Assembly: GCA_903934285.1 (NCBI GenBank)
Contig: CAIZNN010000278.1
Coordinates: 1 to 64,000 of the forward strand
DNA from: Akkermansiaceae bacterium
Lineage (GTDB): Bacteria; Verrucomicrobiota; Verrucomicrobiia; Verrucomicrobiales; Akkermansiaceae
Direction: 5' to 3'
Length of the DNA stretch: 64,000 bases
Every line of letters starts with the position of its first letter. Positions within the stretch are counted from its first letter, which is position 1. Positions 7,733-60,901 of this stretch are shown piece after piece. A program made the translations under genes and the position numbers. The notes under the pieces were generated by a model that ran no database searches, was not told the DNA's origin, and saw nothing but the letters and a program-made list of their open reading frames with translations.

Positions 7733-8020
7733 GGGAGGTGGCAATGAAAATCACCGGAATCACAACATACGGCTCCGGCGGCGTTCACCCTAAACCACAA
7801 GCCCCCGCTCGACAACCCCAAAAAGCCAATCCTGGCACAATTGTCGCTGTCTTATGGGCGATACCAGCAATTTTCGCGGTATGGCGCGAAACTATCAACC
7901 CGATGGCACCGTACAGCACCGAGCCGGTCGCCACCCTGCCCGCCGGCGGCATCGCCCGGGTCATCGTCGAAAAGCGCCCCCGCCCACCCCATCCCCACGC
8001 CCATCCCATCCATCGTTGCC

Positions 8021-11969: not shown

Positions 11970-14900
11970 TTAGCGCGCCTTAACCGAAACCTTCAGCCGC
12001 ATAAAGCCCTGCGCGGCCCCTGTCAGTGGAATGGCGAAGCGGTGCTCGCTGCCGCTGCCCGTGTCGGGCAACTCCAGCCAGCAGCCCGGCTGCAGCGTCG
12101 CACTCCACTCGGCACCATACACGACATCATCGACCGTGGCAGGCTGGGTGAAACGAATCTCGTAGTTGCCATCGATCAACCGCCCTGCAGGCACCTGCGC
12201 AACCCCCGGTCGCAAGGGGTCGAGCTGGAATGCGTAGCCGATCAGATCCACCCCTGTTAGATGGGCCGCCACGGCTCCCAGCGTGCCCTCCCGCGCCATC
12301 GGCATGGCCTGCAACGCCAGATTGTGCCGCGCCGCCACGCCGCTGGCCACCACCATGATGCGACCAGTGACCGCTGTCACCTCCGCAGGGATGGCCCGCG
12401 AAAGCATGCTGCCGTCGCCTAACTGGCCGCTGGCATTTTCGCCCCAGCCAACCAACCGCCCGTCTGCCAGACGCAACAAGCTATGATTGCCCCCGGTTGC
12501 AAGCGCCGCGATCCCGTCGGCGGCGGCCAGGCCGGTTAGATCCACCGCCACCGGCACGGCACTCCGGGCGGCCCCGGCCCCGCCCACCTGGCCGTGATTG
12601 TTTGAGCCCCAGGCGACCAGGGTGCCGTCCGCGCACCACGCCAGGTTGTGATAGCCACCCGCACTGATGGCCACGGGCGTCCTGCCCGCAAGCGCACCAT
12701 GGCCGCCAATCGCCACCGGCGACGCCACTGCCGTCGTGCTGTTGTTGCCCAATTGGCCGGTGTTGTTATATCCCCAGCTCACCAAGGTTGCGTCGGTGCA
12801 TAGTGCCAGGGTGTGGTATTGGCCGGCGGCCAGACTTGCCACCCGCTTGCCTGCAAGTGCCCCGCCGCGGTCCACCGCAACCGGGAGCAAGCTGCCAGCC
12901 GTGCTGCCATCGCCCAGTTCACCTTCGTCGTTATAGCCCCAGGCCGCCACCGTGCCATCCGCGCCGAGCGCGAAACTCTGATAGGCTCCGGCCGCCACCG
13001 CCACCACCTGCATGTTAGCAAGCGCGCCCAGCCGTGGCACCACCACCGGCGCGCGACGGGTCAGCCTGGTGCCATCGCCGAGTTGCCCATGATTGTTATA
13101 GCCCCAGGAAACGATCGTGCCGTCCTCGCACAATGCGAGGTTGTGGAACGGCCCGGCGGCGATCGCCACCACCGCCTTGCCGGCCAGCGCGCCGGTTTGA
13201 TCCAGCGCCACGGGAACCGAACTGTTAGCCGTGCCATTGTTGCCCAGCTGGCCATGCACATTGTAGCCCCACGCCGCCAGCGTGCCATCGGCACACAGCG
13301 CCAGACTATGCAAATAGCCGCCGGCCACCGCCAGCACGGTCGTGTCCGCCAACACGGCCGCGGTGCTTACCGGCGTCGGGATCAAACGCTGCTCCGTCGT
13401 GTCATCGCCGAGTTGGCCAAACCCATTGCCACCCCATGCCAACAACTGCGTATTGGCCCATTGCAGCACCAGGTCGTTGCCGGTGCCACCATGATAGTTG
13501 GCGACGAAGTCATAGTGCTTTGCGTTATAGGTGAGAGTCACCCGCTGCCCCTGGGCCAGGTTGCCGAAGCGGCCATAGATGAAGCCGCGCCCGGAGTTGT
13601 TGACCATGGTTAGAACCGTGCCGGGAGCCGGCGCAAAGCCGAGCACCAGCCTGACCGGATGGCCACCGGCCGCGAAGCCCTCGCTGGTCAGCGGGACGTC
13701 CGAGGCGGAGTTGAAGACAAACGCCTGCGGCAATCGGTTTACCACAAGGGTATAACTTAGCACAGTCACCCCATCCTCCGCCGTGACGACGAGCGAGACG
13801 AGATTATTGCCCACCGCAAGCGCGACCGGCACCTTGACCGCCGCACCATTGGCCGCCACGCCATTGATCGCAACGGTTGCCCGCGGGTGATCGACCACCG
13901 CGCTCACCGTGACCACCGCCGTTTCAAACGGCACCGCCGAGAAATAATCAAGCCGTTGCTTTTCAAACTCCGGCGCGATGACGCCGCCATCATGGCCGAG
14001 CCCCGCCAGCAAGGCGTTGTCGCTGAGCGTGGTGAAGGTCATGTCGGCACCCCGGATGGTGCCACCATAGGTCGTCGCCACCACGCGGCAGTGATAGCTC
14101 GTGCCGGGCCTCAGGCCGGCAAGCGCGGCACTGACCGGAGTGTCCGTTTTGCCCGTGATCTCCGCAGGCGTCGCCGTCGCCGTGCTGCCGTAGGTTTCAT
14201 CCAGCCCGTATTCAAACGACACATTGACCGCATTTTGCCAGGCGTTGACGGTCCCGTGCACGGTGGCGCTGGTGCCCGTCACCGCGGTGGTGGCCAGGCT
14301 CGTAGCGACCGGCAGTGGCAGGTCCGAAATGGCCAGGTTGCTGAGATAGTTAGAGCTCACCCGGATCACCCGTTCACCGGTGATCAAGCCGCTCAGATCC
14401 ACTGCGGCCGGCGACAGGTTGCTGGTCTGCCGCGTGCCGGTTTGGCCTTGTGAATTGGTGCCCCAGCCCGCCACGCTGAAGTCGTCGCACCAAGCGACCG
14501 TGTGCGTTTCCCCACCGGCCGCCCCCAGCACGGTCTTGCCTGCCAGGCCCCCCGTCCGCTCAACCAGGACGGGCACGAGCACGGAGCTGGTGGTGGTGCC
14601 TGTACCCAGTTGACCGCTTGAATTCAGCCCCCATCCCGCCAAGCTGCCATCGGCGCAGCCTACCAGGCTGCTTCGATAGCCAGGATACACCCGCGTGATT
14701 GTCTTGCCGGCAAGCGCACCGGCCCTGTTGACGACTATGGCCTTCGTCTGCGAGACGCTGGTTCTACCATCGCCCACCTGGCCATTCGAATCGTTGCCCC
14801 AGGCGAGCAGGGTGCCATCGGCGGTCAGGGCGAGGATGTGGGTGGCACAGGCCGCAAAACTAACCACCGGTTGGCCCGCGGCCGCAGTCAGATCGACTTG

Positions 14901-17900
14901 CACGGGTAAACTGCGGTTGGAGAAATCGCCGACACCCAATTGGCCACTGGAATTAGAGCCCCACGCCACCAGCGTGCCGTCCGCGCACAGCGCCAGCGAA
15001 TAGTCATAGCCGGCCCCAATCGCCGTGATCCGCTTACCGGCCAAAACCCCGGTTTGATTGACCCGCACCGGCAGCGCGCGGTTGGTCATGGTGCCATCAC
15101 CCAACTGACCGGACACGTTGGCCCCCCAGGCGACCAGCGTGCCATCATCACACAACGCGAGATTCTGCCTGCCACCGACGGCGATCCGCACCACCAACTT
15201 GCCGGCCAGCACGCCGGCGCTATCCACCAGCACCGGCAGCGCACTGCTGGAAACCATGGAGCTGGAGCCGTCCCCCAATTGCCCGTAGGTATTGTCACCC
15301 CAGGCCGCCAGGGTGCCGTCGGCGCACAACGCCAATGCGCTGTCGTATCCCATGGCAGTGGCAATGACCGTTTTCCCGGCCAATACCCCTGTCATGGTCA
15401 CCGGCACGGGAGCGGGAGCATCGACGGTGCCGCCGATGCCGAGCTTGCTCTGGTAGTTGTCACCCCAGGCCAGCACGCGCCGGTTGGCCCACTCCAGCAC
15501 CAAATCATTGCCGCCACCACCGCAATAGCTGGCCACAAACTGATAGGTATTCCCGCCGCAGGCGAGGGCGACCTTGGCTCCTTGGGGCAGATCGGAGAAC
15601 CTGCCACGCAGCGGCGCAGTTCCCGCATTCTTGAGCAAGGTCAGGATGGATCCAGGTTGCGGCACAAAACCGAGCACCACCGCCGGCAGCTCTCCTGATA
15701 GAGTGAACTCGTCCGCTTGGAACGGCGGCGTGTCTGGCGAATTGAGCACGAAGGTCTCCGGCAACCGGGTCACGGTCACGGTGTAGGTGCGGATGTTCAA
15801 ACCATCAGCGGCAGTCACCACCACCGGAATGACCCGCTGCCCGACGGTTAGGCCAAGCGGTGCGGAAGGCATGCCCGACGCCGTCGCCACCCCGTCGACC
15901 GTCACGGCCGCCGAGGCGTGCGTCAGCGTGGGCGTGAGCACGAGCTGGGCGGCGCCGAACGGCACCGTGACTTGATAGTCATTGCAAACCCCGGAGAACG
16001 CGGGCGAAAACCCGCCATGGCTGAGCCGCAAGCCGGCCAGAGTGGCAAAGGTGGTGGTGGTGAAGGTGAAATCCTCGCCCAGCGTCACCCCGCAGTCCGC
16101 GCTGGCAACGCAGCGGAAATGATAGGTGACACCCGGCGTCAGGCCGCTGATGACCGCGCTGGTGGCAACGGCGGCACCCGCGTCAACCGCGGCAGGATTC
16201 CCCGGAATACTATAACCATAGTCGGTTGTGAGTCCATACTCAAAGCCAATGGAAACGTTGGAGTTGCCATTCGGAACCACGGAGCCGTTGAGGGTTCCGC
16301 CGGTGTCGAGAATGCCGGTGGCCGCCAACGTCGCGGTGATCGGCGGCACCGGCGACGCCGCCAGCACGAGATTGTGATAGAAGCAGGCCAACGCCGTCAC
16401 CCGATCGCCAGCCAACAGGCTGCCGCGACTCATTTCCACCGGACTGAGGGCATCGCCAACCGTCGTCAATTGGCCATAGCCATCGTCGCCCCAACCGGCG
16501 ACAACACCGTCCGCACACAGGGCCAGCGAGTGACTCATGCCAACATGGATTTGAGTCACGGTGCGACCTGCCAGCACTCCGGTCTGATCGACCAGCGTTG
16601 GCACCCGGCGCTGGGTGGTGGCGCCGTCGCCCAACTCGCCCGACTCATTGTTGCCCCAGGCGGCGAGGGTTCCGTCGGTGCACAACGCCAGGCTGTGCAA
16701 GCTACCGGCGGCCAGGACCTGGACGGTTTTGCCGAGCAGGGCACCGGTCCGGATCCGCACCGGCAGGTTCCGCGCGATGGTGGTGTTATCGCCTAACTGG
16801 GCTTTGCTGTTATCCCCCCAGGCGGCGAGCGTGCCATCGCTGCAATAGGCCAGGCTGTGGCTCCCCCCGGCCGCGATGGCAATCACCGTCTTGCCCGCCA
16901 ACGCGGTGGAGCAGTCCACCAGGACCGGCACCCGGCGGTCCATGTTAGTGCCGTCACCCACCTGGCCGAGGTCATTTTCGCCCCATGCCACCAGCGTGCC
17001 ATCCTGGCACAGGGCGAGGCAGTGGCGGGCACCGGCGGCGATGGCCGTGATTCGCTTGTCGGCCAGCACGCCGGAACGATCCACCCAGCCGGGAACGGCG
17101 GTGTAGGAGGCACTCAAGTTGATACCGAGCTGACCGCTGCCATTGGCTCCCCACGCGGCCAAGCCGCCGTCGGTGCAAAGCACCAGATTGTAGCCGTTGC
17201 CGCAGGCGATGAGCGCCGGCATCTTCCCGGCCAGCACGCCGGACTGGTTTACCGCCATGGGCACGGCGACCGCAACCGGCCCCGCGACACCGGTCCCCAA
17301 CTGACCGGACTGGTTGCCGCCCCAAGCGAGCAAGGTGCCATCGCCGCAAAGTGCCAGGCTGTGGTCCGTGCCGGCCGCCGAGGCCAACAGCGTCTTGCCG
17401 GCCAGGGCCCCCGACGAGATCACGGGCACGGCGGCGGATTTGGATACGACGCTGCCGTCGCCCAACTGGCCGGTGCCGCCACGCCCCCAGGCAAACAGCC
17501 GGGTATTCGCCCAGCGGAGCACCAGGTCATTGCCAGTGCCGCCGAAATAGTCGGCCACAAACGGATAGATCGTGTCGCCAAAGCGGAGATCCACCCGCTG
17601 GCCATGGGCGAGATTGGCAAAGGCCCCGCTGAGCGGGCCGGTCCCCGTGTTTTCCACCAGCATCAGCGAGGTGCCCGGCGACGGCGGGAAATTCAGGGCG
17701 ATGGCCGCGGCGTGGCCGGTAGCGGCGAGGCCCCCGACGGAAAGTGGCAGCGTGGACGGCGAGTCGAAGGTGAACGTCGCCGGCAACCGGACGACTGTGA
17801 CCTGATAGATTGTGGCGGGAGACACCCCGGCAAGTGCCACCGTGATGGGATTGTCTCCCAGGACCAGCGGAATCGGTGCGCTGGTGGCACCGGAGGCCAG

Positions 17901-20900
17901 CGCCGTGCCATTGACCAGCACGGTGGCATCCGCCCGGGGAGCCACCGGGGTGACCGTCACGAAGTCGGTGCCGAACGGCACCGTGGCCAGATAACGCGTC
18001 TGGGTGGTGGCAAACGCCGGACTGAGGGCGGCATCATGGAGCGTGAGTGAGGCCAGCGTGCCTTGCGCCGTGGTGGTGAACACCCGGTCCTCACCGCTCG
18101 TCCTGCCGTTGGGACCCGATGCAACAACCCGGCAGTGATAGGTGGCGCCCAACGCCAACCCGTCCAACACCGCGCTCACCGGAATCAACCCGCTGCCAGC
18201 GACGCTGGCGGGCATGACGGAGGCCGTGCACCCGTAGGCGGTGGTCGGGCCGTACTCAAAATATACCGCCGCGGACAAACCCAACGGGTTGACCTCGCCG
18301 CGCAACGTGGCGCCGGTGTCCGCAATTTCGGTGGCGGCCAGCGTGAATGCGGCGGGCGGCGGCGGCACCGCGACGAGCGCGAGACTGAAGGAGGACGCGG
18401 CGACGGGCATGAACTCCGCCACCCGCGAACCAGCCGGAAATTTGCTAGAGGCGAGCGCCACCGGCACATTGCTGCTCGACGAAGTGCCATTGCCAAGTGT
18501 GGAAGAGCCCCAGACGGCGGCGGTGCCGTCGGCGGCAATGCCGTAGCTGCGCCCGGTGCCGGCAACCGCGGCTTGCAATGTCTTTGCCGCCAGCACCCCG
18601 GCCGCTTGCACCAGCACTGGCGCCTGCCGGTTGGTGGTGGTGCCGTCGCCAAGTTGGCTGGCATTGTTGTAGCCCCATGCCACGAGACTGCCATCGGCGC
18701 AGAGCGCCTGACAGTGCCCTTCGCCGGCGGAAAACGCCACCACGGTCCGGTCCCTGAGCACGCCGGTGGCGTCCACCAACACCGGGGTGGTCCGGTCCAC
18801 CAGGCTGTTGTCGCCCAACTGGCCGTAATTGTTCCTGCCCCAAGCGACCAGCGCGCCATCCGCACACAGCGCGTAGCTGCTCACACTGCCGGCCGCGATG
18901 GCCGTGATCCTGCGGCCTGCCAGCACGCCGGTCTGGCTGACCGCTGCCGGATACTTGCCGTTGGTGGTGCCGCCGTTGCCCAACTGACCGTAGACGTTGT
19001 AACCCCAAGCGAACAGCGTCCCATCCTCGCACAAGGCGAGACAGTGGCTGCCGCCCGCCGCGATCGCAGTGACCTTCCGGCCGGCCATCGCACCGGTTTG
19101 TTGGAGCACCGCCACCGGCACGTTCGCCTGATAGGTGGAGCCGTTGCCAAGCTGCCCGTAACTGCTGGCGCCCCAGGTGTGGATCGTGCCATCGGCGCAC
19201 AGCACCAGGCTGTGGTAGCCACCCACGGCCAGATCAATGACCCGCTTGCCCGCCAGCACGCCGTCCTGGGTCACCCGGAGCGGAGTGGGGTTGGCGCTGC
19301 TGGTGGTGCCGACCCCCAACTGGCCGCTCTGATTGTAACCCCATGACACAAGGGTGCCGTCCGTGCACAGCACCACGCTATGGGAGGCCCCGCCGCCGCC
19401 GGTTAGAACCGTCTTGGCGGCCAGTTCGCCGCCCATATCGACCGGCGTGGGCAGCAGGCTGGAGGTGGCCGTGCCATCCCCCAACTCGCCATTGTAGTTT
19501 CCACCCCAGGCGAACAAGCGGCTGTTAGCCCACCGCAGTACCAGCTCGTTACCCGTGCCGCCGTAGTAGTCGGCGACGAATGGATAGATGACGCCGCCGT
19601 ACGGCAACTGGACCGTTTGCCCGTCCGCCAGATTGGTGAAGCGGCCGGCAATCGGCTCCGGGCCGGTGTTGTCAAGCACGGTGAGCGCGGCGCCCGGCAC
19701 GGGCGCGTGGTCGAGCCGGAGGGCGACGGCCAGCCCGGCGAGCGAGAATCCGGAGGCGACGGCCGGAACGGTGGCCGGGGAGCCGAAGGCCAGCACCGCC
19801 GGCAGCCGGGTGGCGCTGATTTGATAGGTCCGCTCCTCGCCACCCTCACCGGTCACTTGGATCGTCACCCGCGTGGTGCCGGTGCCGAGCGGAATCGGCG
19901 GACTGGCCACGCCGGCGGCCAGCGGGTCGCCATTGACCTCGAGCACCGCGGCGGGATGCGCCGGCGAGGCTGTTAGAGTGAGCGCGGCCACGGAACCCGG
20001 CAGGGTGACATGATAGCTGTCGGTATCAGGCTCGAATGCGGGTGCCAGCGTCCCGGCGCTCACGCGAAGTTGCGCCAACGTCGCCGACGCGGTGGTGGTG
20101 AACGTCCGGTCAGGTCCCACGGCGGTGCCGCCCGGCCCGCTGGCGATCACCCGGAAATGGTAGGTGGCACCGGCGCGCAAGCCGACCAGCGCGGCTGCCA
20201 CCGGCACGGGCGTGGTGCCGGACAAGGTGTCGGGAATCGCGGGCGTGGTGGCGCCGTAGGAATCTGTTAGACCGTATTCGAAAGCGACGGTGGCGGCGTT
20301 GCCGCTGGGATTGACCCGGCCGTTGACGTTGGCGGTGGCGTCCGCCAGCTCCGTCGCCGCCAGGGTTTCCAGGGCGGGTTTGAGCGCGGAGGCAACCAGG
20401 GCGAAGGCCGGATATTCCCCGGCCATCACCGCCGCAAAGACTTCGCCGGTGCGGAGCACGCCGGTAGCTACCGGCCCGGGCCGGTAGCGGCTGTAGGGGC
20501 TGGAGCCATCGCCCAAGCGACCGTCGTTGCCATTTCCCCAGGCCGCCAGAGTGCCGTCAGCGCACAGCGCGTAGCTGTTTCGGCCGCCCGCCGCGATCCC
20601 GGTGATGGTCTTGCCCGCCAGGGTGCCGCTGCGGTCCACCAGCACGGGATCGCCGGTGGCCGAGGCGACCCCCAATTGTCCGTATTGATTATCGCCCCAA
20701 GCAACCAAACTCCCGTCCGTGCACAACGCAAGGGTGTGGCGCGAGGAGGAAACCACCGTATCAACGGTTCGTCCGACCAACACGCCGGTTGGGCTCTTCA
20801 GCACTGGCACGGTGGTGGTGCCGCCCCAGACCGCGCTGGCGCCATCCGCGCACAGCGCCCAGGTGCTACCGATGGCAACAATCTGCCTGCCCGCCAGCAC

Positions 20901-26900: not shown

Positions 26901-29900
26901 CACGAGATTGAAACTCTCACCACTGGCAATCGCGGCAACCGATCGGTTAGACAAGACCCCGGCCTGGTTGACCTTTACGGGCGTCGTGCGGTTGGTCACC
27001 GTGCCGTCGCCCAATTGGCCGTTGGAATTGTCGCCCCAGGCGGCCAAGGTGCCGTCGCCGCACCAGACCAAGCAGTGGTTGCCGCCGCAGGCGATGGCCA
27101 CCACCGATTTTCCGGCCAGCACGCCGGCCTGCTCCACCCGCACCGGAGTTGACCGATTGGTGGTGGTGCCGTCGCCCAACTGACCCTTGTCATTGAGTCC
27201 CCAAGCCACCAGCGTGCCGTCGCTGCACAAGACCAAATTGTGGGAACTGCCGGCGGCCAGGGCGACCGGGATCTTTCCAGCCAGAACGCCGGACATGTCC
27301 ACCCGCGCAGGCACGTTCTGGTCCACGGTATCGCCCATCCCTAACTGGCCGCTCGCGTTGTAGCCCCAAGCGGCCAAGGTGCCATCGGCCGTCAGTGCCA
27401 GGTTGTGAGTTCCTCCCGCCACCGACCGTACGATCCATTTGCCAGCCAGCGCACCATTAGCCACGGCGGTCGGCATCGTGCGGGCCACCGTCGTGCCGTC
27501 ACCCAGCCTGCCATTGGCATTGACTCCCCATGCCAGCAACCGGCGACCCGCCCATTCGAGCACCAGGTCGTTGCCGGTGCCGCCGAAGTAATTGGCCACA
27601 AACGGGTATTGGATATTGTTATAGGACAAGGCCACCGCCTGCCACTGGGCGAGGTTGCTAAATGTCCCTTGAATCAATCCCGCACCGGTGTTCTTGAGCA
27701 ACGTCAACTGGGTGCCCACCGGTGGCGCGAAGCCCAGACTCAGTTCCACCGGCAGCCCGCCCACCGAGAACCCCGCCGCAATCGCCGGCACCGCGACCGC
27801 CGACGCCAACACCATTACCGCCGGCAAGCGCGTGACCACCACCTCATACGTCCGCGTTTCCCCGGCGGCCGTCACCGCGATCATGATCGTGTTAGAACCT
27901 GCGGCCAGTGCCAGCGGCCCACTCGCGGAACCGGAGGCGACGTCGCCGCCGTTGACCTTCACCGTGGCAGCGGCGGCGGCCGCCACCGGCGTCACCGTGA
28001 CACTCGTGGTGGCATTGGCCACCGTCGTTTCATAATGCGCCACCTCAGCACTGAACGCCGGCGCCAAGGCGGCCGCCCCATCGACCGTTAGAGAAACCAA
28101 TTTGGCCACATCGGTGGTCGTTAGAGTTTGATCCGCGCCGGTTGTCACGCCACCCGGTCCGGAGGCGAGCACCCGATAGTGATAGGCCGTGCCCGGTCTG
28201 AGATTGGCCAGCGTGGCGCTGACGGCAGTGTCGGCACTGCCGGAAACCGTGGCGGGCACGGCAGCCACGCTGCTGCCATAAGCGGTGGTCAGGCCAAACT
28301 CAAAGCTAACCGCCGCGGTGACACCCGCGGCGCTGACCCGCCCGTTGATGGTGGCGGTGGTGTCCCCGCCGCCGGTGGCCGCCAGGGTTTCCGCCACCGG
28401 CGGCGGCGGCGTGGCAGTCACCACCATCGAATCGGATGACAGCCCGCCGATCAACTTGGCAATGCCCTCTCTGGTCCTCCGCTCGCCATTGAGCACCAGC
28501 ACGGGCGCCGTTCGACTGGTCGTCGTGCCGTCCCCCAGTTGACCATCGTAGTTGTAACCCCAGGCGGTTAGGGTGCCGTCGGAACACAGGGCCAAACTGT
28601 GCTGGAAACCCGCCGCAATCGCGGTCACCGTCTTGCCCGCCAATACCCCGGAAGCGGTCACCACCCCGGGCACCGTCGCGTCGGTGGTCGTGCCATTGCC
28701 GAGCTGGCTGTAATAGTTGTCGCCCCAGGCCGCCAGCGTACCGTCGGTGCACAGGGCCAGACTGTGATAGGAACCGGCGGCGATGGACTGGATCGTCTTG
28801 CCGCCCAGCACCCCGGTGCGGGAAACCACCGCCGGCAGCGGATAGCCCCCCGACTGATTCGCTGGCTCGGTCGAGCCGACCTGACCATCGGAGCCTGCCC
28901 CCCATGCCGTCAAGGTGCCATCCGCACACAACGCCAACGAGTGCCCGCCGCCCACCGCGATGGAAACGACCTCCTTGCCGCCCAGCGCGCCCTGGTTCAT
29001 CGCTACCGGAGTGCCGGTATCCGACCATTCCGCCACGGTGCCGTCGGTGCACAGGGCCAACCGGCGGCTTGACGCCACCGCGAGCGACGCGATCGATTTT
29101 CCGGTGAGGGCGCCACTCATCGCCACCGGCCCCGGCAACACGCCATAACCCGAGCCCCACGCGAACAACACGCCGTCCTCACACAGCGCGAAGCTGGTGT
29201 TTGAGCCGATTACCAGCGAGAGAATCGTCCGGCCGGCCAGTTCACCCTCGGTGTCCACCGGCACCGGCACACTCGACGCCACCTTGTCGCCGGTTCCCAA
29301 CTGACCGCTCGCATTGTCCCCCCACGCGAACAGCACACCATCCGAGCGCAACGCCAGGCTATGGACGGGCCCGATCGCGCTCGCCACCACCGTCCGGCCG
29401 TTTCCTAACACGAGGCCCGGCGCGGTCGGCGTGAGCCGGTTCGTCACCGTGCCGTCACCAAGCTGGCCTGAGCCGTTAGCCCCCCACATCAACAAGCGCT
29501 GATGGCCCCAGCGGAGGACCAGATCGTTGCCGGTACCGCCGAAATAGTCGGCCACAAACTGATAGGTCACGCCGCCATAGGCGAGGCTGACCGTCTGCCA
29601 CTGCCGCAGGTTGCTGAAACGCCCGGCGATCGGATTGTTGCCCGTGGTATTCACCACCGTCAGCACCGCCCCCAGCGCGGGCGTGAACCCCAGCGCAAAC
29701 GCCGCCTCACCGCCCGCTTGGAAATTCCCGGCCGTTACCGGAACGGTGTTAGACGCAGCAAAGGCAAAGGACGCCGGTAGCCGGGTCACCTCTATCTGAT
29801 AGGTCGCCGTCTCGCCGCCGGCCCCGGTCACCAACACCTTCACCGCCGTATTTCCCACGGCCAGCGGCAGTTCCTGGCTCGGCTGCCCCGAGGCCACCAC

Positions 29901-32900
29901 CTCCCCATTGATCCGCAGCGTGGCATCCGGATGTTTTGGAACTGCGGTGAGGGTGAGGCCGGTGGTGGCATGGGGCAGGGTCACGTTGTAGGAAACCCGG
30001 TCGGAGTTGAATCCGGGCTGCAGCGCGCCGGCACTCAGCGACAGGCTGGTTAGAACCGCCAAATCGTTGGTCGTGAACGTTTGGTCGGCACCGTTCAGCG
30101 TGTGGCTGCCGATTGTTGCCACCACCCGGAAATGATAGGTTCGGTCGGGCAGCAAGCCGCTGAGCGCGGCACTGACCGCCACCGCCGCACTGCCGTTCAT
30201 CGTGAGCGGCGTTTGTGGTGCGCTGGAGCCATACGCCGTGGTCAGCCCGTATTCAAAATACACCCGGGTGCCCAAGCCGTTTGCATTCACCCGCCCATTG
30301 AGCGTGGCGGTGGTGCGGGTGACGTTTTCAGCCGCCAAGGTCTCCGGCACGGGCAGGGTGGCGGGCTGCGACGCGACCACCCCGAGGATGAAAGCAGAAT
30401 TCGCGGAGGCATCGATCCACCGCTCGCCTGCCCGCAATGCGGTGGTGACAGGCAGCACCGGCCGGGTCCGGTTGGTGGTGGTGTTATCGCCCAATTGACC
30501 GTAGTTATTCCCCCCCCAGGTGGCCAACACCCCATCGGTGCAAACGGCGACATTGAAACTCGAGCCGGTATTGCTGATGCGGCTTACTGTCTTGCCTGAG
30601 AGCACGCCGTTGCGGTCCACCGCGACGGGAACCAGCGAGTCCACTCCCGACACACCATTGCCCAATTCACCCGCGTAGTTGCCACCCCATGTCACGAGAC
30701 TCCCATCGGTGCAGAGGACCAAACTGTGGGTGAATCCGGCGGCCACCGCTGCCACGGTCTTGCCCACCAACGCCCCCACCATTTTCACCAAGACCGGACG
30801 GCTGGCCGAGACACTTGAGGCGCCATTGCCCAGTTGCCCCTTTTCGTTGCTGCCCCAGGCGACCACCGCACCATCCGCGCACAAGGCCAGATTGTGAGCC
30901 CAGCCCGCTGCCACCGCCACCACGGTCCGCCCCTTGAGTTCACCACTCATATCGACCCATACCGGGCTGCTGCGATTGGTGGTGGTGCCGTCGCCCAACT
31001 GCCCCTTGTCATTGTTCCCCCAGGCGGCGACCGTGCCATCCCCGCACAGCGCCAGGCTGTATGACGAACCGCACATGATCGACATCACCCGCTTGCCCGC
31101 CAACACCCCGGAACGATCCACCAGCACCGGGCGGTAGCGATGGGTGGTAGTGCCGTCACCCACCGCCCCCGCGAAATTGTATCCCCACGCCGCCATCTCA
31201 CCGTCGGAACACAGGGCCAGACTGGTGGTTCCAGCCGCCAGCGCGACGATCGTCCTGCCCGCCAACACGCCCGAGCGGTCCACCGGAACAGGAAAGGTGC
31301 GGCCCGTGTAGCCGCCATCGCCCAGTTGACCTTCACTGTTGCGGCCCCACGCCACCAGCGTGCCGTCCGCACACAAGGCCAAATTGTGGCTGCCTCCCAC
31401 CGCGCAACGGACAATCACCTTGTCCGTCAGCAAGTCACCGCCCACCGGGGTGGGAAGCTTCCGGTCGGTAGTGGTGCCATCCCCTGCTCCCCCTGTGCCG
31501 TTGTAGCCCCAGCCCAACAACCGCTCGCCGCCCCACTCCAACACCAAATCGTTGCCATCGCCGCCGAAGTAGTTGGCCACAAACCGGTATTGCGTCCCGC
31601 CGTATGGCAGATACACGGTTTCCCATTGCCCGAGATTGGCAAAGGTCCTCTCAAACACCCCGCTTCCGGTATTCTTGATCACCGTCAGTCGCGTGCCAAT
31701 GACCGGCGCGAAATTGAGCACCAAATTGACCATGCCCGAGGGCTGGAAATTCGCGCCGGTGGCTGGCACGGTGGTCGCGGAATCGAACACCATGGCTTCC
31801 GGCAACCGCGCGACCACGAGGCGATAGGTTTGCGTGTTCGCCCCGGCACCCGCCACCTCGATGACAATGGTGGTATCGCCGGCCTCAAGTGGCACGACCT
31901 GGCTGGCCGCGCCGGACTCGGTTGCCGTACCATTCACCCGCACGGTCGCTGCGGCGTGGCGTGCCGTCGGTGTGACGCTGATGCCGGTGGTGGCGGTGGT
32001 CACGGTGAGGGTGTATGCCATCCGCTTCGGGTCAAACTCCGGCAGCACCTCGCCCGCGCTGGTGGCAAGCCCCGCGAGCACCGCCGCATCGGTGGTGACG
32101 AACGTCAGATCCTGCCCCTTGACCGTGCCGCCCGCACTGGTCGCGACCACCCGGTAATGATAGGTGGTGCCAGGCAACAGACCGGCGGCAGTGGCCGCCA
32201 CTGCGGTGGCGGTGGTGCCGGTGACCGTGGCGGGAGCGGCGGCCAGGGTGCTGCCGTAGGCGCTTGTCAGACCATATTCGAAAACAACCCCGGCAGCCGA
32301 ACCGTTGCCATTCACTTGGCCATTGAGCGCCGCGGCACCATCTCCCACAGCGGTTGCAGCCAAGGTCTCCACCAGCGCTGGCGGGGGCATCGCCACCAAT
32401 GCCAGACTATGATAGGAACCGGCCACCACCTTGACCGGTCGCTCGCCGACAGCCAAGGCGGCGGAGTTGACCCGCACCGGGACCAAGGAGCTGTTAGATG
32501 AACCATCACCGAGTTGTCCCGAGCTGTTGCCCCCCCATGCGGCGATCGTTCCATCGGTGCACAGTGCCAGGCTATGGCTGACACCGGCGGCGATTGCCAC
32601 CACCTCCTTGCCAGCCAGCACTCCAGCGGCGCTGACCCACGCCGGTGCCGTGTGTTTGGTGGTGCTGCCATCACCCAACTGCCCGGACCCGTTGTAGCCC
32701 CATGAGGCCACCACACCACCATCGCATAGCGCCAGGCTGAAGTTCCCCCCGGCCGCCACCGCCAGCACCTTCCGGCCATTGAGAATGCCCGTTGCTCCCA
32801 CCTGACCCGGCGTCGTCGTTGCCGTGCTGCTGCGGCCCAATTCGCCAAAATCGTTACCGCCCCAGGACGCCAGGGTGCCGTCCGGGCAAAACGCCAGGCT

Positions 32901-33560
32901 GTGGGTGTAACCTGCGGAAATGCCGGTCACCGTCTTGCCGGCGAGCACTCCCGAGCGAACGACCGGCCCCGGCAGCGCCGCGCTGCCGGTCACCCCATTC
33001 CCTACCCGCCCGTCATCGTTCCTGCCCCAGCCAACCAGCAGCGACCCGACGCCATAGCTGAAACAATGTTCATTTGCGGCGATCCCGAACAACGGGCCGC
33101 CCTCCACGCCGTCCGTGCCACTCACCACAGCCGGCACATTTCTGGATGTCACCAAGAGGCTCTCCCCCAATTGCCCGTTGGCGTTACTCCCCCATGCCAT
33201 CAACCGCGTGCTGCCCCACTCCAACACCAGGTCATTGCCCGTGCCACCGTAATAGTTGGCCACAAACGGATAGACCATCCCGCCGAACGCCAGGTTCACC
33301 CGCTGCCCTTGGGCCAGGTTGTCAAAATCCCCTTGGATCAGGTCCAGCCCGGTGTTGTTCACCACGCACAAATTCGTCCCGGTCGCCGGGGCGAATTTGA
33401 GTTCGAACGACGCCGTTTGGCCCGCCGCGTCAAAGGCGGCCACTGTCAGCGGTTGCGAGGTGGCGGAAGCGAACTGGAAGTTCAGGCCGTTGACAGCGTC
33501 CGCGGCAGTGGCGGAAGCGGGACTGAGGGCGAGCACGGCAAGCAGGGATAACAGTTTCAT
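11970..33560 (-). CDS. giant secreted RCC1 multi-propeller protein (about 7,196 aa)
   Basis: One uninterrupted frame of 21.6 kb. I start it at ATG 33560 because MKLLSLLAVLALSPASATAA is a textbook signal peptide; the longer frame adds 22 unrelated residues. The mature protein is a chain of eleven units. Each unit has a roughly 95-residue beta domain ending GGTGNDLVLEW, an RCC1 propeller, a fibronectin-III-like domain (ETLAATxxxxTxATLNGRV to TYHYRVVA) and a cadherin-like beta-sandwich (LTPVxxHPAATVxVNG to TYQVxVTRLP). The last unit instead ends in a roughly 105-residue cap (FAIPLTGAAQGFMRLKVSVK). I count about 75 RCC1 blades of 55 residues, with the consensus SLALCADGTLAAWGYN-GQLGDGT. No membrane anchor, PEP-CTERM motif or barrel is visible. 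RCC1 repeats bind proteins in eukaryotes; here an extracellular or surface scaffold or adhesin role is inference. It is divergent from the autotransporter gene. Confidence 0.9.
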   Translation of the reverse strand: MKLLSLLAVLALSPASATAADAVNGLNFQFASATSQPLTVAAFDAAGQTASFELKFAPATGTNLCVVNNTGLDLIQGDFDNLAQGQRVNLAFGGMVYPFVANYYGGTGNDLVLEWGSTRLMAWGSNANGQLGESLLVTSRNVPAVVSGTDGVEGGPLFGIAANEHCFSYGVGSLLVGWGRNDDGRVGNGVTGSAALPGPVVRSGVLAGKTVTGISAGYTHSLAFCPDGTLASWGGNDFGELGRSSTATTTPGQVGATGILNGRKVLAVAAGGNFSLALCDGGVVASWGYNGSGQLGDGSTTKHTAPAWVSAAGVLAGKEVVAIAAGVSHSLALCTDGTIAAWGGNSSGQLGDGSSNSSLVPVRVNSAALAVGERPVKVVAGSYHSLALVAMPPPALVETLAATAVGDGAAALNGQVNGNGSAAGVVFEYGLTSAYGSTLAAAPATVTGTTATAVAATAAGLLPGTTYHYRVVATSAGGTVKGQDLTFVTTDAAVLAGLATSAGEVLPEFDPKRMAYTLTVTTATTGISVTPTARHAAATVRVNGTATESGAASQVVPLEAGDTTIVIEVAGAGANTQTYRLVVARLPEAMVFDSATTVPATGANFQPSGMVNLVLNFAPVIGTRLTVIKNTGSGVFERTFANLGQWETVYLPYGGTQYRFVANYFGGDGNDLVLEWGGERLLGWGYNGTGGAGDGTTTDRKLPTPVGGDLLTDKVIVRCAVGGSHNLALCADGTLVAWGRNSEGQLGDGGYTGRTFPVPVDRSGVLAGRTIVALAAGTTSLALCSDGEMAAWGYNFAGAVGDGTTTHRYRPVLVDRSGVLAGKRVMSIMCGSSYSLALCGDGTVAAWGNNDKGQLGDGTTTNRSSPVWVDMSGELKGRTVVAVAAGWAHNLALCADGAVVAWGSNEKGQLGNGASSVSASRPVLVKMVGALVGKTVAAVAAGFTHSLVLCTDGSLVTWGGNYAGELGNGVSGVDSLVPVAVDRNGVLSGKTVSRISNTGSSFNVAVCTDGVLATWGGNNYGQLGDNTTTNRTRPVLPVTTALRAGERWIDASANSAFILGVVASQPATLPVPETLAAENVTRTTATLNGRVNANGLGTRVYFEYGLTTAYGSSAPQTPLTMNGSAAVAVSAALSGLLPDRTYHFRVVATIGSHTLNGADQTFTTNDLAVLTSLSLSAGALQPGFNSDRVSYNVTLPHATTGLTLTAVPKHPDATLRINGEVVASGQPSQELPLAVGNTAVKVLVTGAGGETATYQIEVTRLPASFAFAASNTVPVTAGNFQAGGEAAFALGFTPALGAVLTVVNTTGNNPIAGRFSNLRQWQTVSLAYGGVTYQFVADYFGGTGNDLVLRWGHQRLLMWGANGSGQLGDGTVTNRLTPTAPGLVLGNGRTVVASAIGPVHSLALRSDGVLFAWGDNASGQLGTGDKVASSVPVPVDTEGELAGRTILSLVIGSNTSFALCEDGVLFAWGSGYGVLPGPVAMSGALTGKSIASLAVASSRRLALCTDGTVAEWSDTGTPVAMNQGALGGKEVVSIAVGGGHSLALCADGTLTAWGAGSDGQVGSTEPANQSGGYPLPAVVSRTGVLGGKTIQSIAAGSYHSLALCTDGTLAAWGDNYYSQLGNGTTTDATVPGVVTASGVLAGKTVTAIAAGFQHSLALCSDGTLTAWGYNYDGQLGDGTTTSRTAPVLVLNGERRTREGIAKLIGGLSSDSMVVTATPPPPVAETLAATGGGDTTATINGRVSAAGVTAAVSFEFGLTTAYGSSVAAVPATVSGSADTAVSATLANLRPGTAYHYRVLASGPGGVTTGADQTLTTTDVAKLVSLTVDGAAALAPAFSAEVAHYETTVANATTSVTVTPVAAAAAATVKVNGGDVASGSASGPLALAAGSNTIMIAVTAAGETRTYEVVVTRLPAVMVLASAVAVPAIAAGFSVGGLPVELSLGFAPPVGTQLTLLKNTGAGLIQGTFSNLAQWQAVALSYNNIQYPFVANYFGGTGNDLVLEWAGRRLLAWGVNANGRLGDGTTVARTMPTAVANGALAGKWIVRSVAGGTHNLALTADGTLAAWGYNASGQLGMGDTVDQNVPARVDMSGVLAGKIPVALAAGSSHNLVLCSDGTLVAWGLNDKGQLGDGTTTNRSTPVRVEQAGVLAGKSVVAIACGGNHCLVWCGDGTLAAWGDNSNGQLGDGTVTNRTTPVKVNQAGVLSNRSVAAIASGESFNLVMCTDGNMAAWGDNPYGQLGNGSILDATAPTLVDRSGVLAGKTVTAVACGGAHSMALCSDGTLAAWGSTMSGQLGNGTLYDYTGKWLPVLVTRTGVLSGKTVAAIAGGNSHSLAICSDGTLTAWGNNDNGELGNTTTNPIATPVLVTTTALRAGERFVLAAGGTNHSLAAVAQPVPPVVETLAAAELKDTSATLNGRVNGNNTTTAGAFEYGLTTAYGSTVAATPASVSGTTSTAVSAPVSGLRSGSIYHFRCVGTAAGRVVYGNDQMFTTTSLASLAGLTPSVAVLSPTFGPETTRYDVTLAGAELALTPVTVDAAATVTVNGAAVASGTASPAIALNPGSNTINVVVSGAGGNTQTYQVIATRLPALMTFASATTVPATAGGFAVAGLTADFTLGYTPAAGTLLTVLKNTGNLPIQGRFTNLTQGQVLRLACGGIEYPFVVNYQGGDGNDLVLEWGLNRLVGWGYNQGGEIGDGTTTSRSVPTAMLEGVLAGRLVSRIVAGGSHGLALCADGTLAAWGGNSYGQLGDGTNSNAYLPVLVDRSGVLGGQEIVGLWAGRVHSVALLADGSLVAWGENTSGQLGDGSTTNRNVPVRVKMDGVLAGKTVKAASCGATHTLVLCTDGTLAAWGDNGYGTLGNGGTTASAVPVAVNRTGVLAGKTVTAIAAGYYFSLAACADGTVTAWGYNTFGQLGNGSTSNSPVPVLVTRTGVLSGRTVTAVAAGESFSLALCADGTLAAWGSNSDGQLGNGTTTSSSAPAMVTRTGVLTGKTVTAVSAGQSNALAFCADGAVVTWGNNYSGVLGDNSTTSRSAPVLVNTSGLGPSERFSAAQVWGVRAMAMVGILPPPVPETLAATAVTGTAASLAGRVGPSGNTVTVAFEYGLSTGYGSTVVAVPATVSGTAVVNVSAALTGLLPAATYHYRVVVTRSGKLFYGADASFTTRDAATLASLAVDSGRLFPGFVASQTSYHVTVPNATAGIALTPVTTHPAATLRINGQTVASGAASETLPLTVGGNSINVVVTGEDGAALTYQVTVTRLPAAFAFASASTIPVTAGALTAAGDATVSLGFAPVPGTMLTVVNNTGGGAIQGRFANLAQWQTITLSFGGIDYPFVVNYYGGTGNDLVLEWANRRLLAWGANYSGNLGDGTTANRAVPAPVLPGVLAGKTMVRVAAGGYHNLALASDGTLVAWGSNSDGQLGDNSTTDRAIPVAVDTSGVLAGKTIIGLVAYGRHSVAICDDGTVATWGGNASGQLGDGTTTNRLKPVWVDRSGVLAGKQVVAVAGNGSHCLALCADGTLVAWGYNGFGQLGDGTSVTGLSPVRVNQAGILAGKVITNIAAGANHSLVLCADATVVTWGYNVFGNLADGTTSSTGRFVPAAVVSSGVLAGKTVIGLSSCADTCLVRCADGTLASWGFGQNGELGNGQLADAQTTPVLVTRTGVLSGKTPVVMASGWGHHLVGCSDGTLVAWGYNSSGQLGDNSATNRLTPVLVPSSALRPGERIAAVGAGSGHSLVWVSSPPPPTLTTQPATEVTDTSAMLNGQVMANGTATTVAFEYGLTTAYGTRTAATPGTVTGTTPTAVSAVIGGLLSGTTYHCRAIAAGAGGDVAGPDQVLTTTTQAALAGLLIAPGLLQPAFEANRTLYQATVANPTASVALTPVTTDAAAVVTVNGTVVASGAASDPIALAEGANPIALEVNGAGGQTRTYQVVVTRLPAAFDFATAATVPVTAAAVALDDWNAAFSLGFAPAPGTQLMVLKNTGTAPIQGRFANLAQWQTVNLSFDGLTYPFLVNYYGGTGNDLVLEWANRRLVGWGGNLYGNLGDDTTDNRGVPVALGLGALASRTVARVAVGTSHTLALCTDGRIAAWGLNGVGSLGDGTNINRNLPGLVDASGVLAGKKVVAVAAGYYDSLALCEDGTLAAWGYNESGQLGDGTLNNRFLPVRVVQSGVLAGKTITAMACAESHTVVLCADGTLAAWGRNSEGQLGNGSKVSSSVPVLVKTDGVLAGRQIVAIGSTWALCADGASAVWGGTTTVPVLKSPTGVLVGRTVDTVVSSSRHTLALCTDGSLVAWGDNQYGQLGVASATGDPVLVDRSGTLAGKTITGIAAGGRNSYALCADGTLAAWGNGNDGRLGDGSSPYSRYRPGPVATGVLRTGEVFAAVMAGEYPAFALVASALKPALETLAATELADATANVNGRVNPSGNAATVAFEYGLTDSYGATTPAIPDTLSGTTPVPVAAALVGLRAGATYHFRVIASGPGGTAVGPDRTFTTTASATLAQLRVSAGTLAPAFEPDTDSYHVTLPGSVAALTLTASPAHPAAVLEVNGDPLAAGVASPPIPLGTGTTRVTIQVTGEGGEERTYQISATRLPAVLAFGSPATVPAVASGFSLAGLAVALRLDHAPVPGAALTVLDNTGPEPIAGRFTNLADGQTVQLPYGGVIYPFVADYYGGTGNELVLRWANSRLFAWGGNYNGELGDGTATSSLLPTPVDMGGELAAKTVLTGGGGASHSVVLCTDGTLVSWGYNQSGQLGVGTTSSANPTPLRVTQDGVLAGKRVIDLAVGGYHSLVLCADGTIHTWGASSYGQLGNGSTYQANVPVAVLQQTGAMAGRKVTAIAAGGSHCLALCEDGTLFAWGYNVYGQLGNGGTTNGKYPAAVSQTGVLAGRRITAIAAGSVSSYALCADGALVAWGRNNYGQLGDNSLVDRTTPVLVDATGVLRDRTVVAFSAGEGHCQALCADGSLVAWGYNNASQLGDGTTTNRQAPVLVQAAGVLAAKTLQAAVAGTGRSYGIAADGTAAVWGSSTLGNGTSSSSNVPVALASSKFPAGSRVAEFMPVAASSFSLALVAVPPPPAAFTLAATEIADTGATLRGEVNPLGLSAAVYFEYGPTTAYGCTASVMPASVAGSGLIPVSAVLDGLALGATYHCRVVASGPNGRTSGEDRVFTTTAQGTLASLTLHDAALSPAFATTQTRYLATVPFGTDFVTVTPVAPRADATVLVNGTALASGATSAPIPLVLGDNPITVALAGVSPATIYQVTVVRLPATFTFDSPSTLPLSVGGLAATGHAAAIALNFPPSPGTSLMLVENTGTGPLSGAFANLAHGQRVDLRFGDTIYPFVADYFGGTGNDLVLRWANTRLFAWGRGGTGQLGDGSVVSKSAAVPVISSGALAGKTLLASAAGTDHSLALCGDGTLLAWGGNQSGQLGTGVAGPVAVAVPMAVNQSGVLAGKMPALIACGNGYNLVLCTDGGLAAWGANGSGQLGINLSASYTAVPGWVDRSGVLADKRITAIAAGARHCLALCQDGTLVAWGENDLGQVGDGTNMDRRVPVLVDCSTALAGKTVIAIAAGGSHSLAYCSDGTLAAWGDNSKAQLGDNTTIARNLPVRIRTGALLGKTVQVLAAGSLHSLALCTDGTLAAWGNNESGELGDGATTQRRVPTLVDQTGVLAGRTVTQIHVGMSHSLALCADGVVAGWGDDGYGQLTTVGDALSPVEMSRGSLLAGDRVTALACFYHNLVLAASPVPPITATLAATGILDTGGTLNGSVVPNGNSNVSIGFEYGLTTDYGYSIPGNPAAVDAGAAVATSAVISGLTPGVTYHFRCVASADCGVTLGEDFTFTTTTFATLAGLRLSHGGFSPAFSGVCNDYQVTVPFGAAQLVLTPTLTHASAAVTVDGVATASGMPSAPLGLTVGQRVIPVVVTAADGLNIRTYTVTVTRLPETFVLNSPDTPPFQADEFTLSGELPAVVLGFVPQPGSILTLLKNAGTAPLRGRFSDLPQGAKVALACGGNTYQFVASYCGGGGNDLVLEWANRRVLAWGDNYQSKLGIGGTVDAPAPVPVTMTGVLAGKTVIATAMGYDSALALCADGTLAAWGDNTYGQLGDGSSSMVSSSALPVLVDSAGVLAGKLVVRIAVGGRQNLALCDDGTLVAWGANVSGQLGDGTMTNRALPVRVNQTGVLAGKRITAIGAGYDYSLALCADGTLVAWGSNSSGQLGVGDFSNRSLPVQVDLTAAAGQPVVSFAACATHILALTADGTLLAWGNDSNGQVGDGRTSVSQTKAIVVNRAGALAGKTITRVYPGYRSSLVGCADGSLAGWGLNSSGQLGTGTTTSSVLVPVLVERTGGLAGKTVLGAAGGETHTVAWCDDFSVAGWGTNSQGQTGTRQTSNLSPAAVDLSGLITGERVIRVSSNYLSNLAISDLPLPVATSLATTAVTGTSATVHGTVNAWQNAVNVSFEYGLDETYGSTATATPAEITGKTDTPVSAALAGLRPGTSYHCRVVATTYGGTIRGADMTFTTLSDNALLAGLGHDGGVIAPEFEKQRLDYFSAVPFETAVVTVSAVVDHPRATVAINGVAANGAAVKVPVALAVGNNLVSLVVTAEDGVTVLSYTLVVNRLPQAFVFNSASDVPLTSEGFAAGGHPVRLVLGFAPAPGTVLTMVNNSGRGFIYGRFGNLAQGQRVTLTYNAKHYDFVANYHGGTGNDLVLQWANTQLLAWGGNGFGQLGDDTTEQRLIPTPVSTAAVLADTTVLAVAGGYLHSLALCADGTLAAWGYNVHGQLGNNGTANSSVPVALDQTGALAGKAVVAIAAGPFHNLALCEDGTIVSWGYNNHGQLGDGTRLTRRAPVVVPRLGALANMQVVAVAAGAYQSFALGADGTVAAWGYNDEGELGDGSTAGSLLPVAVDRGGALAGKRVASLAAGQYHTLALCTDATLVSWGYNNTGQLGNNSTTAVASPVAIGGHGALAGRTPVAISAGGYHNLAWCADGTLVAWGSNNHGQVGGAGAARSAVPVAVDLTGLAAADGIAALATGGNHSLLRLADGRLVGWGENASGQLGDGSMLSRAIPAEVTAVTGRIMVVASGVAARHNLALQAMPMAREGTLGAVAAHLTGVDLIGYAFQLDPLRPGVAQVPAGRLIDGNYEIRFTQPATVDDVVYGAEWSATLQPGCWLELPDTGSGSEHRFAIPLTGAAQGFMRLKVSVKAR
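12290..13466 (-). repeat. propeller 11 (C-terminal, seven RCC1 blades)
   Basis: Seven blade motifs, from AWGGNGFGQLGDD to GWGENASGQLGDG. Only four inner positions keep cysteine. It is followed by the C-terminal cap instead of a fibronectin-like domain. Confidence 0.8.
14325..15497 (-). repeat. propeller 10 (seven RCC1 blades)
   Basis: Seven blade motifs, from AWGDNYQSKLGIG to GWGTNSQGQTGTR. Five of six inner positions are cysteine; the fourth reads ILALTADG. Confidence 0.8.
16358..17516 (-). repeat. propeller 9 (seven RCC1 blades)
   Basis: Seven blade motifs, from AWGRGGTGQLGDG to GWGDDGYGQLTTV. All six inner positions are cysteine. Confidence 0.8.
18372..19540 (-). repeat. propeller 8 (seven RCC1 blades)
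   Basis: Seven blade motifs from AWGGNYNGELGDG; the last is shortened to VWGSSTLGNGTSS. Two blades have the double-cysteine form CLALCEDG or CQALCADG. Confidence 0.78.
20392..21503 (-). repeat. propeller 7 (seven blades, one degenerate)
   Basis: Six full blades plus a shortened fifth (WALCADGASAVWGGTTTVPV) that has lost the GQLGDG turn. All six inner cysteine positions are kept. Confidence 0.78.
22358..23525 (-). repeat. propeller 6 (seven RCC1 blades)
   Basis: Seven blade motifs, from AWGANYSGNLGDG to AWGYNSSGQLGDN. Its leading beta domain shares NYYGGTGNDLVLEWANRRL exactly with unit 7, so neighbouring units may be exchanging sequence. Confidence 0.8.
24375..25540 (-). repeat. propeller 5 (seven RCC1 blades)
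   Basis: Seven blade motifs, from GWGYNQGGEIGDG to TWGNNYSGVLGDN. Five of the six inner positions have cysteine; the exception reads SVALLADG. Confidence 0.8.
26386..27557 (-). repeat. propeller 4 (seven RCC1 blades)
   Basis: Seven blade motifs, from AWGVNANGRLGDG to AWGNNDNGELGNT. One blade has the variant CLVWCGDGTLAAWG, with two cysteines. Confidence 0.8.
28410..29515 (-). repeat. propeller 3 (seven blades, one degenerate)
   Basis: Six recognisable WG blades plus a fourth blade reduced to AEWSDTGTPVAM, about 60 bp shorter than usual. The third blade (FAWGSGYGVLPGP) is also shortened. Confidence 0.75.
30365..31538 (-). repeat. propeller 2 (seven RCC1 blades)
   Basis: Seven blade motifs, from GWGYNGTGGAGDG to TWGGNNYGQLGDN. 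All six inner 'L-C-x-DG' positions carry cysteine. Confidence 0.8.
32388..33222 (-). repeat. propeller 1 (N-terminal, only five RCC1 blades)
   Basis: Five WG-N-GQLG blade motifs (AWGSNANGQLG, GWGRNDDGRVG, SWGGNDFGELG, SWGYNGSGQLG, AWGGNSSGQLG). It is about 330 bp shorter than the others, equal to two 55-residue blades. Confidence 0.8.
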
Positions 33561-33897
33561 GAAAATTCCGGGTTGGATAGGAAACGATGACAATTCGACA
33601 TCTGACAATAAAAGCCGCCCGACCATCCGTCGGACACTCGGGCAAGTCCAAACTCTGACACGTTGTTAGCATGTGGCGTTGCGCCGTTCCAACAAGCAGA
33701 AAATCCACCCCAACAGCGGGCTGCGGGCGATTCCGCAAAGCCATGCGCAGCCCGCGGCAGGATATGCGCGATCCGGCTTGCTTGTTAGCTAGCGATTTTG
33801 TTTGACCTCGGTGGCATCACCCAAATACCGTTGCGACTTCCGTGCCAGCACGGAGGCTCCGTGCCAGCACGGAGGCGCTAACCTCGCTTCTTTCGCC
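33561..33897. promoter_or_regulatory. divergent promoter region between giant gene and autotransporter
   Basis: These 337 bp separate two divergent exported-protein genes and must hold both promoters. Visible structure is a short hairpin, CCGAC-catcc-GTCGG, near 33617-33631 and the tandem palindrome at 33840-33877. I see no gene here and no strong -35/-10 pair, and neither start has a clear Shine-Dalgarno sequence. Confidence 0.45.
33840..33877. repeat. tandem 19-bp repeat, each copy a palindrome
   Basis: CCGTGCCAGCACGGAGGCT (33840-33858) is followed directly by a second copy differing only in its last base (33859-33877). Each copy contains CCGTGC-CA-GCACGG, a perfect inverted repeat with a 2-base centre. 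The pair ends about 20 bp before the autotransporter start, so it may be a leader hairpin, an operator or a REP-like repeat. Confidence 0.85.
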
Positions 33898-60868: not shown

Positions 60869-60901
60869 CCCTCCAGTTCCAACGGCTTCCACATCCCTAC
60901 T

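Follow-up and report, generated by a model that had tools for sequence, protein, structure and literature searches.

A predicted exported giant of a lake Akkermansiaceae bacterium, built as a string of RCC1 propellers

A 64-kb window of DNA (the whole stretch that was analysed, 64,000 nucleotides) from an Akkermansiaceae lake bacterium related to Akkermansia contains one very large gene, which raises the question of how so long a protein is built and enlarged, and what it might do once exported. The giant open reading frame runs unbroken on the minus strand, from 11970 to 33626. Its likely start is Met-23 at position 33560, with a typical Sec signal sequence directly after it, giving a protein of 7,196 aa with a mature mass of about 718 kDa. 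The predicted signal peptide is also the strongest 12-aa hydropathy window of the giant. An earlier sequence-only reading of this DNA had placed the start at 33560 and proposed a secreted protein, roughly 7,200 residues long, with a signal peptide; start and length match ours, and the Sec-type signal sequence supports the predicted export.

Every blade was read, and 75 RCC1 blades were found in eleven runs of 5, 7, 7, 7, 7, 7, 7, 7, 7, 7 and 7, which reproduces the count given before (five, then seven in each of ten units, about 75 in all). The tryptophan of the 'WG' motif is kept in 75/75 blades. Surplus WG matches in a simple motif count proved false on reading and were discarded. Rings 3 and 7 contain some short blades (41-44 aa), which leave the blade count unaffected. 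When the giant is cut at each 'GG.GN[DE]LVL.W' end, eleven units result, the first of 561 aa and the next nine of 652-677 aa, so that the previously noticed 2.0-kb period (a repeat of about 670 aa) is real. In a Pfam scan which covered about half of the giant (both ends), PF00415 (RCC1) scored 545.6 bits over one third of the giant in 23 stretches, above the curated cut-off; RCC1, RCC1_2 and the whole-propeller model WD40_RLD were all far above cut-off, and cadherin-like PF12733 and Fn3-like domains were also detected. All three families for which a profile search had been proposed (RCC1, Fn3-like and cadherin-like) were therefore matched. The middle linkers were placed by alignment to the end linkers, and the three inter-propeller domains described by the sequence-only reading were found in 10/10 linkers. 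The third of them, here called b, ends in GGTGNDLVLEW and had no match in Pfam or NCBIfam. In the following list, propellers were delimited by blade reading, and linkers by Pfam and linker alignment.

11970-33560, minus strand: giant gene; a Sec-type signal peptide, ten repeats of b domain, RCC1 propeller, Fn3-like and cadherin-like domain, then one more b domain with propeller 11, and the T domain at the C-terminus
33495-33560, minus strand: predicted signal peptide, MKLLSLLAVLALSPASATA-A (sequence reading and hydropathy)
33216-33494, minus strand: first beta (b) domain, end GGTGNDLVLEW (AlphaFold2 pLDDT about 90)
32385-33215, minus strand: propeller 1, five blades only
31533-32399, minus strand: linker 1 (Fn3-like, cadherin-like PF12733, b domain)
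30366-31532, minus strand: propeller 2, seven blades; closed-ring model, Z 52.1 to HERC2 RLD2
29508-30380, minus strand: linker 2, same three domains
28410-29507, minus strand: propeller 3, seven blades, of which two are short (44 and 41 aa)
27552-28424, minus strand: linker 3, same three domains
26382-27551, minus strand: propeller 4, seven blades; model Z 52.8 to HERC2 RLD2
25533-26396, minus strand: linker 4, same three domains
24372-25532, minus strand: propeller 5, seven blades
23520-24386, minus strand: linker 5, same three domains
22350-23519, minus strand: propeller 6, seven blades
21495-22364, minus strand: linker 6, same three domains
20388-21494, minus strand: propeller 7, seven blades, of which one is short (43 aa)
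19530-20402, minus strand: linker 7, same three domains
18360-19529, minus strand: propeller 8, seven blades
17511-18374, minus strand: linker 8, same three domains
16341-17510, minus strand: propeller 9, seven blades
15489-16355, minus strand: linker 9, same three domains
14313-15488, minus strand: propeller 10, seven blades
13458-14327, minus strand: linker 10, same three domains
12294-13457, minus strand: propeller 11, seven blades

Two AlphaFold2 models were made, one of unit 4 (9-row alignment) and one of the b domain, ring 1, linker and ring 2 (43 rows), and both were compared with known structures by Foldseek and VIA-align. The unit 4 propeller had pLDDT mostly above 90 and matched HERC2 RLD2 from the first strand through the last (Z 52.8, rmsd 1.9 A, 365/370 residues). 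Against the closed rings of UVR8, RCC1 and HERC1 its Z was about 50, and against BLIP-II (1jtd) 31, over 271/273 residues. The ring 2 model was closed in the same way (Z 52.1 to HERC2 RLD2). Units 2 and 4 are hence predicted to form closed seven-bladed RCC1 rings, and an open or merged solenoid is ruled out for both by their models. Structure prediction, as the sequence-only reading had proposed it, thus gave closed rings in both units assessed. For the five-bladed ring 1 the model is of moderate confidence, and confidence is low over residues 225-240.

The blade number appears to be a property of the whole family. Across all relative loci retrieved, complete runs preceded by a b domain were counted; 181 of 183 distinct runs in related Akkermansiaceae had seven blades by profile, and 183/183 did so after the two seeming exceptions (L017 and L037) were read by hand and found to be profile misses. 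Among 17 related RCC1 ORFs, the paralogue in the window's own genome included, the number of rings per chain ranged from 2 to at least 12, and runs uncut by contig ends all scored seven by profile except one six. To judge from these sequences, the family fixes blade number at seven while ring number per chain varies, and together with the models of units 2 and 4 the family-wide count supports the earlier picture of whole seven-bladed propellers on a string. When 289 genomes were drawn from across the phylum, full giant units turned up outside the genus in a single genome, which belongs to a different genus of the family; one further genome, from a different family, gave a partial match. The shorter paralogue mentioned above (G000:C60:21404-25969) carries two seven-bladed RCC1 propellers. 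In another genome of the genus, G018, four RCC1 giants (L101-L104; 7355, 5947, 2635 and 1553 aa) lie within 72 kb of one contig (G018:C17:43001-123000).

The exception to the seven-blade rule is ring 1 of the window's giant. Its collinear orthologue (G018:C17:85050-107114; 7,355 aa, eleven units) has seven blades in ring 1, and the alignment indicates that about 109 aa, that is two blades, are absent from the window's copy between blades 5 and 7. Because the orthologous ring has seven, this would be the result either of a deletion of two blades or of an error in the local assembly.

32470-32510, minus strand: approximate junction of the missing two blades in ring 1 (alignment to the G018 orthologue)

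At its C-terminus, the giant reads ...RLKVSVKAR, with neither LPxTG nor a hydrophobic tail, and none of the PEP-CTERM features (PEP motif, hydrophobic helix, basic tail) was seen there on reading. The absence of a sorting tail, as claimed by the sequence-only reading, is nevertheless doubtful: the last 85 aa form a strictly C-terminal domain, the T domain, which is common to dozens of large proteins across Verrucomicrobiota (e.g. L122, L137, L177-L195) and also terminates most complete giants.

11973-12251, minus strand: C-terminal T domain, unnamed, candidate sorting domain (profile search and alignment)

Its motif is DGxxNLxEYAxGLxP ... FxRLKV. A profile detected 27 copies in the genome that contains the window, against 81 copies in G018; across the phylum, 36/145 genomes contained a match, several of them from another genus of the same family. 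In 52/52 cases (32 + 20) the domain ends 0-6 aa ahead of the stop codon. It belongs to no family in Pfam or NCBIfam, its alignment gave no match to the T9SS C-terminal domain in either collection at E up to 1, and by sequence it is neither LPxTG nor PEP-CTERM. We regard it as a candidate sorting domain.

The other claim made about export, that the giant has no barrel, holds for the protein itself, as no barrel domain was present in its last 1,476 aa (Pfam scan), but an autotransporter-barrel gene is a recurrent neighbour of giants and lies 337 bp away in the window.

33898-36435, plus strand: divergent neighbour, an autotransporter that combines a signal peptide, a PATR/beta-helix passenger and an outer-membrane barrel (PF03797; Pfam)

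Homologues of this gene, 44-68% identical, adjoin giants at eight loci including the window (the others in G018, G006, G002, G057, G104 (L022) and G029:C802 (L016), and at L028). They are mostly divergent to the giant, with one same-strand and one convergent case. Among 73 genomes of the genus, both genes occurred in 12, the giant only in 1 (G054), the barrel gene only in 0 and neither in 60 (Fisher test, 7e-13, ignoring phylogeny). For this scoring, one full unit or one full linker sufficed to count as a giant, and a barrel gene meant a match with E up to 1e-100; these thresholds were set after the matches had been seen. No barrel homologue was found near the giants at G054:C83, G047:C47 (both), G029:C464 and the second cluster of G018:C17, so the partner need not be present in cis. 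On this genomic evidence, the barrel gene appears linked to giants in the genus as a recurrent partner.

The sequence-only reading knew of no described system of this exact design. This was too strong: honeybee bifidobacteria possess LPxTG-anchored surface proteins in which 2-4 RCC1 domains, each of about 7 repeats, occur per chain, encoded in tandem gene clusters and subject to diversifying evolution (PMC4449606), so that bacterial surface proteins built as strings of seven-bladed RCC1 rings were, in kind, known before. Both groups of proteins are exported, by prediction in the case of the giants, carry several RCC1 domains of about seven repeats per chain and show duplication and divergence. 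They differ in ring number (2-4 in bifidobacteria versus 2 to at least 12 in giants) and in what precedes each RCC1 domain, which is a Flg_new (Listeria-Bacteroides) repeat in bifidobacteria and Fn3-like, cadherin-like and b linkers in the giant; no Flg_new was found in the Pfam scan of the giant's two ends (about half of it), and the middle linkers align with the Fn3-like/cadherin-like ones. Moreover, the bifidobacterial proteins are Gram-positive and LPxTG-anchored, while the giant is Gram-negative, lacks LPxTG and has a T domain and a barrel partner. Judged by sequence comparison, the giant family would be new in its linkers and number of rings, in its occurrence in Gram-negatives, and in having a T domain and a barrel partner, and we found no description of the giant's architecture in the open-licence literature.

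As for single propellers, the rings of RCC1, the RLDs of HERC2 and UVR8 share fold, blade motif and blade number with those of the giant. RCC1, HERC2 and UVR8 are eukaryotic and intracellular, have between one and three of these domains per chain, and are not secreted arrays. BLIP-II, a secreted beta-lactamase inhibitor of Streptomyces (1jtd), is likewise a secreted bacterial seven-bladed RCC1-type propeller, but unlike the giant it is a single small ring with short blades and a known protein ligand. Vibrio cholerae Bap1 and RbmC, whose secreted propellers bind biofilm matrix polysaccharide (PMC10102183), are analogues in mechanism, not in design, having one eight-bladed propeller of another family together with beta-prism domains. 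Finally, the neighbour gene is a classical (type Va) autotransporter with PF03797 and PATR, while the giant is without barrel.

We propose, with a probability of roughly 60%, that the giant is a surface-displayed multivalent binding scaffold which grows by whole rings. Each 2-kb repeat would supply one closed RCC1 propeller between small beta domains of a string-like scaffold, the chain would lengthen via tandem duplication of whole units, and the blade number of each ring would stay at seven, since a ring would fold only when closed. In 13/16 proteins, the two whole units most alike are neighbours in the chain, as expected from such duplication. Propellers amplified from single blades are documented (PMC9218822); in giants, by contrast, the growth unit appears from the sequences to be the whole ring plus its linkers. 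Inheritance of blades position by position across units was not apparent (similarity of 0.48 at same versus 0.45 at different positions), which indicates that blade-level history is blurred. After Sec export, we infer that the giant would most likely reside at the cell surface or in the matrix, and that the T domain and/or the co-encoded autotransporter-barrel protein may help it to reach or stay there. By analogy with other secreted adhesin propellers, its many diverging propeller faces could together provide a multivalent array that binds polysaccharide, matrix or partner cells.

The array itself, or at least its five-blade ring, might be thought an assembly artefact, as the window's contig comes from a 282-contig assembly and ring 1 alone is five-bladed. 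We consider this very improbable. DNA identity between repeat copies is only about 60-72%, with no near-identical repeats, so that copies should neither collapse nor multiply during assembly; dozens of similar arrays exist in other assemblies; and the eleven-unit orthologue of G018 is independent and collinear, 10/11 window units having their best match in the same-position unit (identity 0.53 to 0.80), although the margin is narrow for unit 7 and unit 8 is too diverged to be placed. Mis-assembly of the array, which the sequence-only reading had named as its refuting case, is therefore unlikely; for the two blades absent from ring 1, a local error may nevertheless be the cause. The same divergence bears on whether the rings bind anything. 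A passive structural filament or coat, in which rings serve as spacers for length and stiffness (S-layer- or stalk-like) with no specific ligand, would accord with the regular 670-aa modules and short fixed linkers, with a ring design that is constant while ring number varies, and with a long chain of folded beta domains. However, the units have diverged (propellers to 42-55% and linkers to 40-57% protein identity, units overall to 40-57%) with the fold kept, and loop positions diverge fastest, even between orthologues, a diversity of faces which would be no gain for a pure spacer. When orthologous units are compared, the framework residues W, G, D, P and Cys are kept, and the blade positions that change most include the x of 'WGxNxxGQLG' and of 'AGxxHS' (ortholog identity 0.24-0.39). 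The x pair of 'AGxxHS' aligns with Trp-Arg of the UVR8 GWRHT motif, which lies on the interaction face of UVR8. This pattern suggests that propeller binding faces diversify; the variable loop positions may also be relaxed instead of selected. Overall, we judge a ligand-free filament to be unlikely, and prefer the binding scaffold.

As for the route across the outer membrane, the neighbouring barrel might be a dedicated exporter of the giant, the two forming a new variant of two-partner secretion. Recurrent adjacency and near-perfect co-occurrence of the two genes speak for such a pair, which we nonetheless hold to be quite improbable: the barrel protein has its own signal peptide and PATR/beta-helix passenger, like self-transporting autotransporters, the barrel is not of the Omp85/ShlB type, and some giants lack the barrel gene. 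No ShlB/FhaC-type partner lies beside the giant, where the neighbour is PF03797, and the sole match in the genome is weak, ShlB-like and on another contig. To our knowledge, there is no precedent for a PF03797 barrel exporting a separate protein. Secretins are present in the window's genome; SprA_N had no match there, nor in any control genome. Going beyond the binding scaffold, giant and barrel neighbour might constitute a dedicated two-gene surface system, in which the barrel docks or exports up to a dozen diversified seven-bladed rings, with the T domain as a phylum-wide sorting signal of an undescribed Verrucomicrobiota surface-display pathway, also in other genera of the family; we put this forward tentatively and think it rather doubtful.

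With seven blades held in nearly 200 propellers while ring number and sequence are free, the family offers a natural experiment on propeller closure number and on the way in which giant proteins enlarge by whole domains. With the barrel partner and the T domain, an anonymous giant of common lake bacteria becomes a surface system that can be tested, and the T domain may label some of the proteins exported throughout the phylum.

Several minor observations were made in and around the gene. Between 12294 and 33215, a Cys occupies one shared blade position (LALC-x-DG) in 55/75 blades of the exported giant, which has 86 Cys in total. A perfect palindrome, CCGTGCCAGCACGG, occurs twice in tandem (at 33840 and 33859, within 33839-33876) between the giant and the barrel gene, with 0.06 expected in the window; considered as a conserved operator of the two genes, it was rejected, since it is significant in the window and none of the relatives compared has it. 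The region flanking the giant encodes a GH32 enzyme (65-1624), a large F5/8C-domain protein with weak similarity to alpha-L-fucosidase (7841-11767) and a sulfatase (36630-37991), which suggests a polysaccharide-using neighbourhood. Further downstream, the G+C content of 60001-62000 is 0.489 versus about 0.62 for the window, indicating a possible foreign segment.
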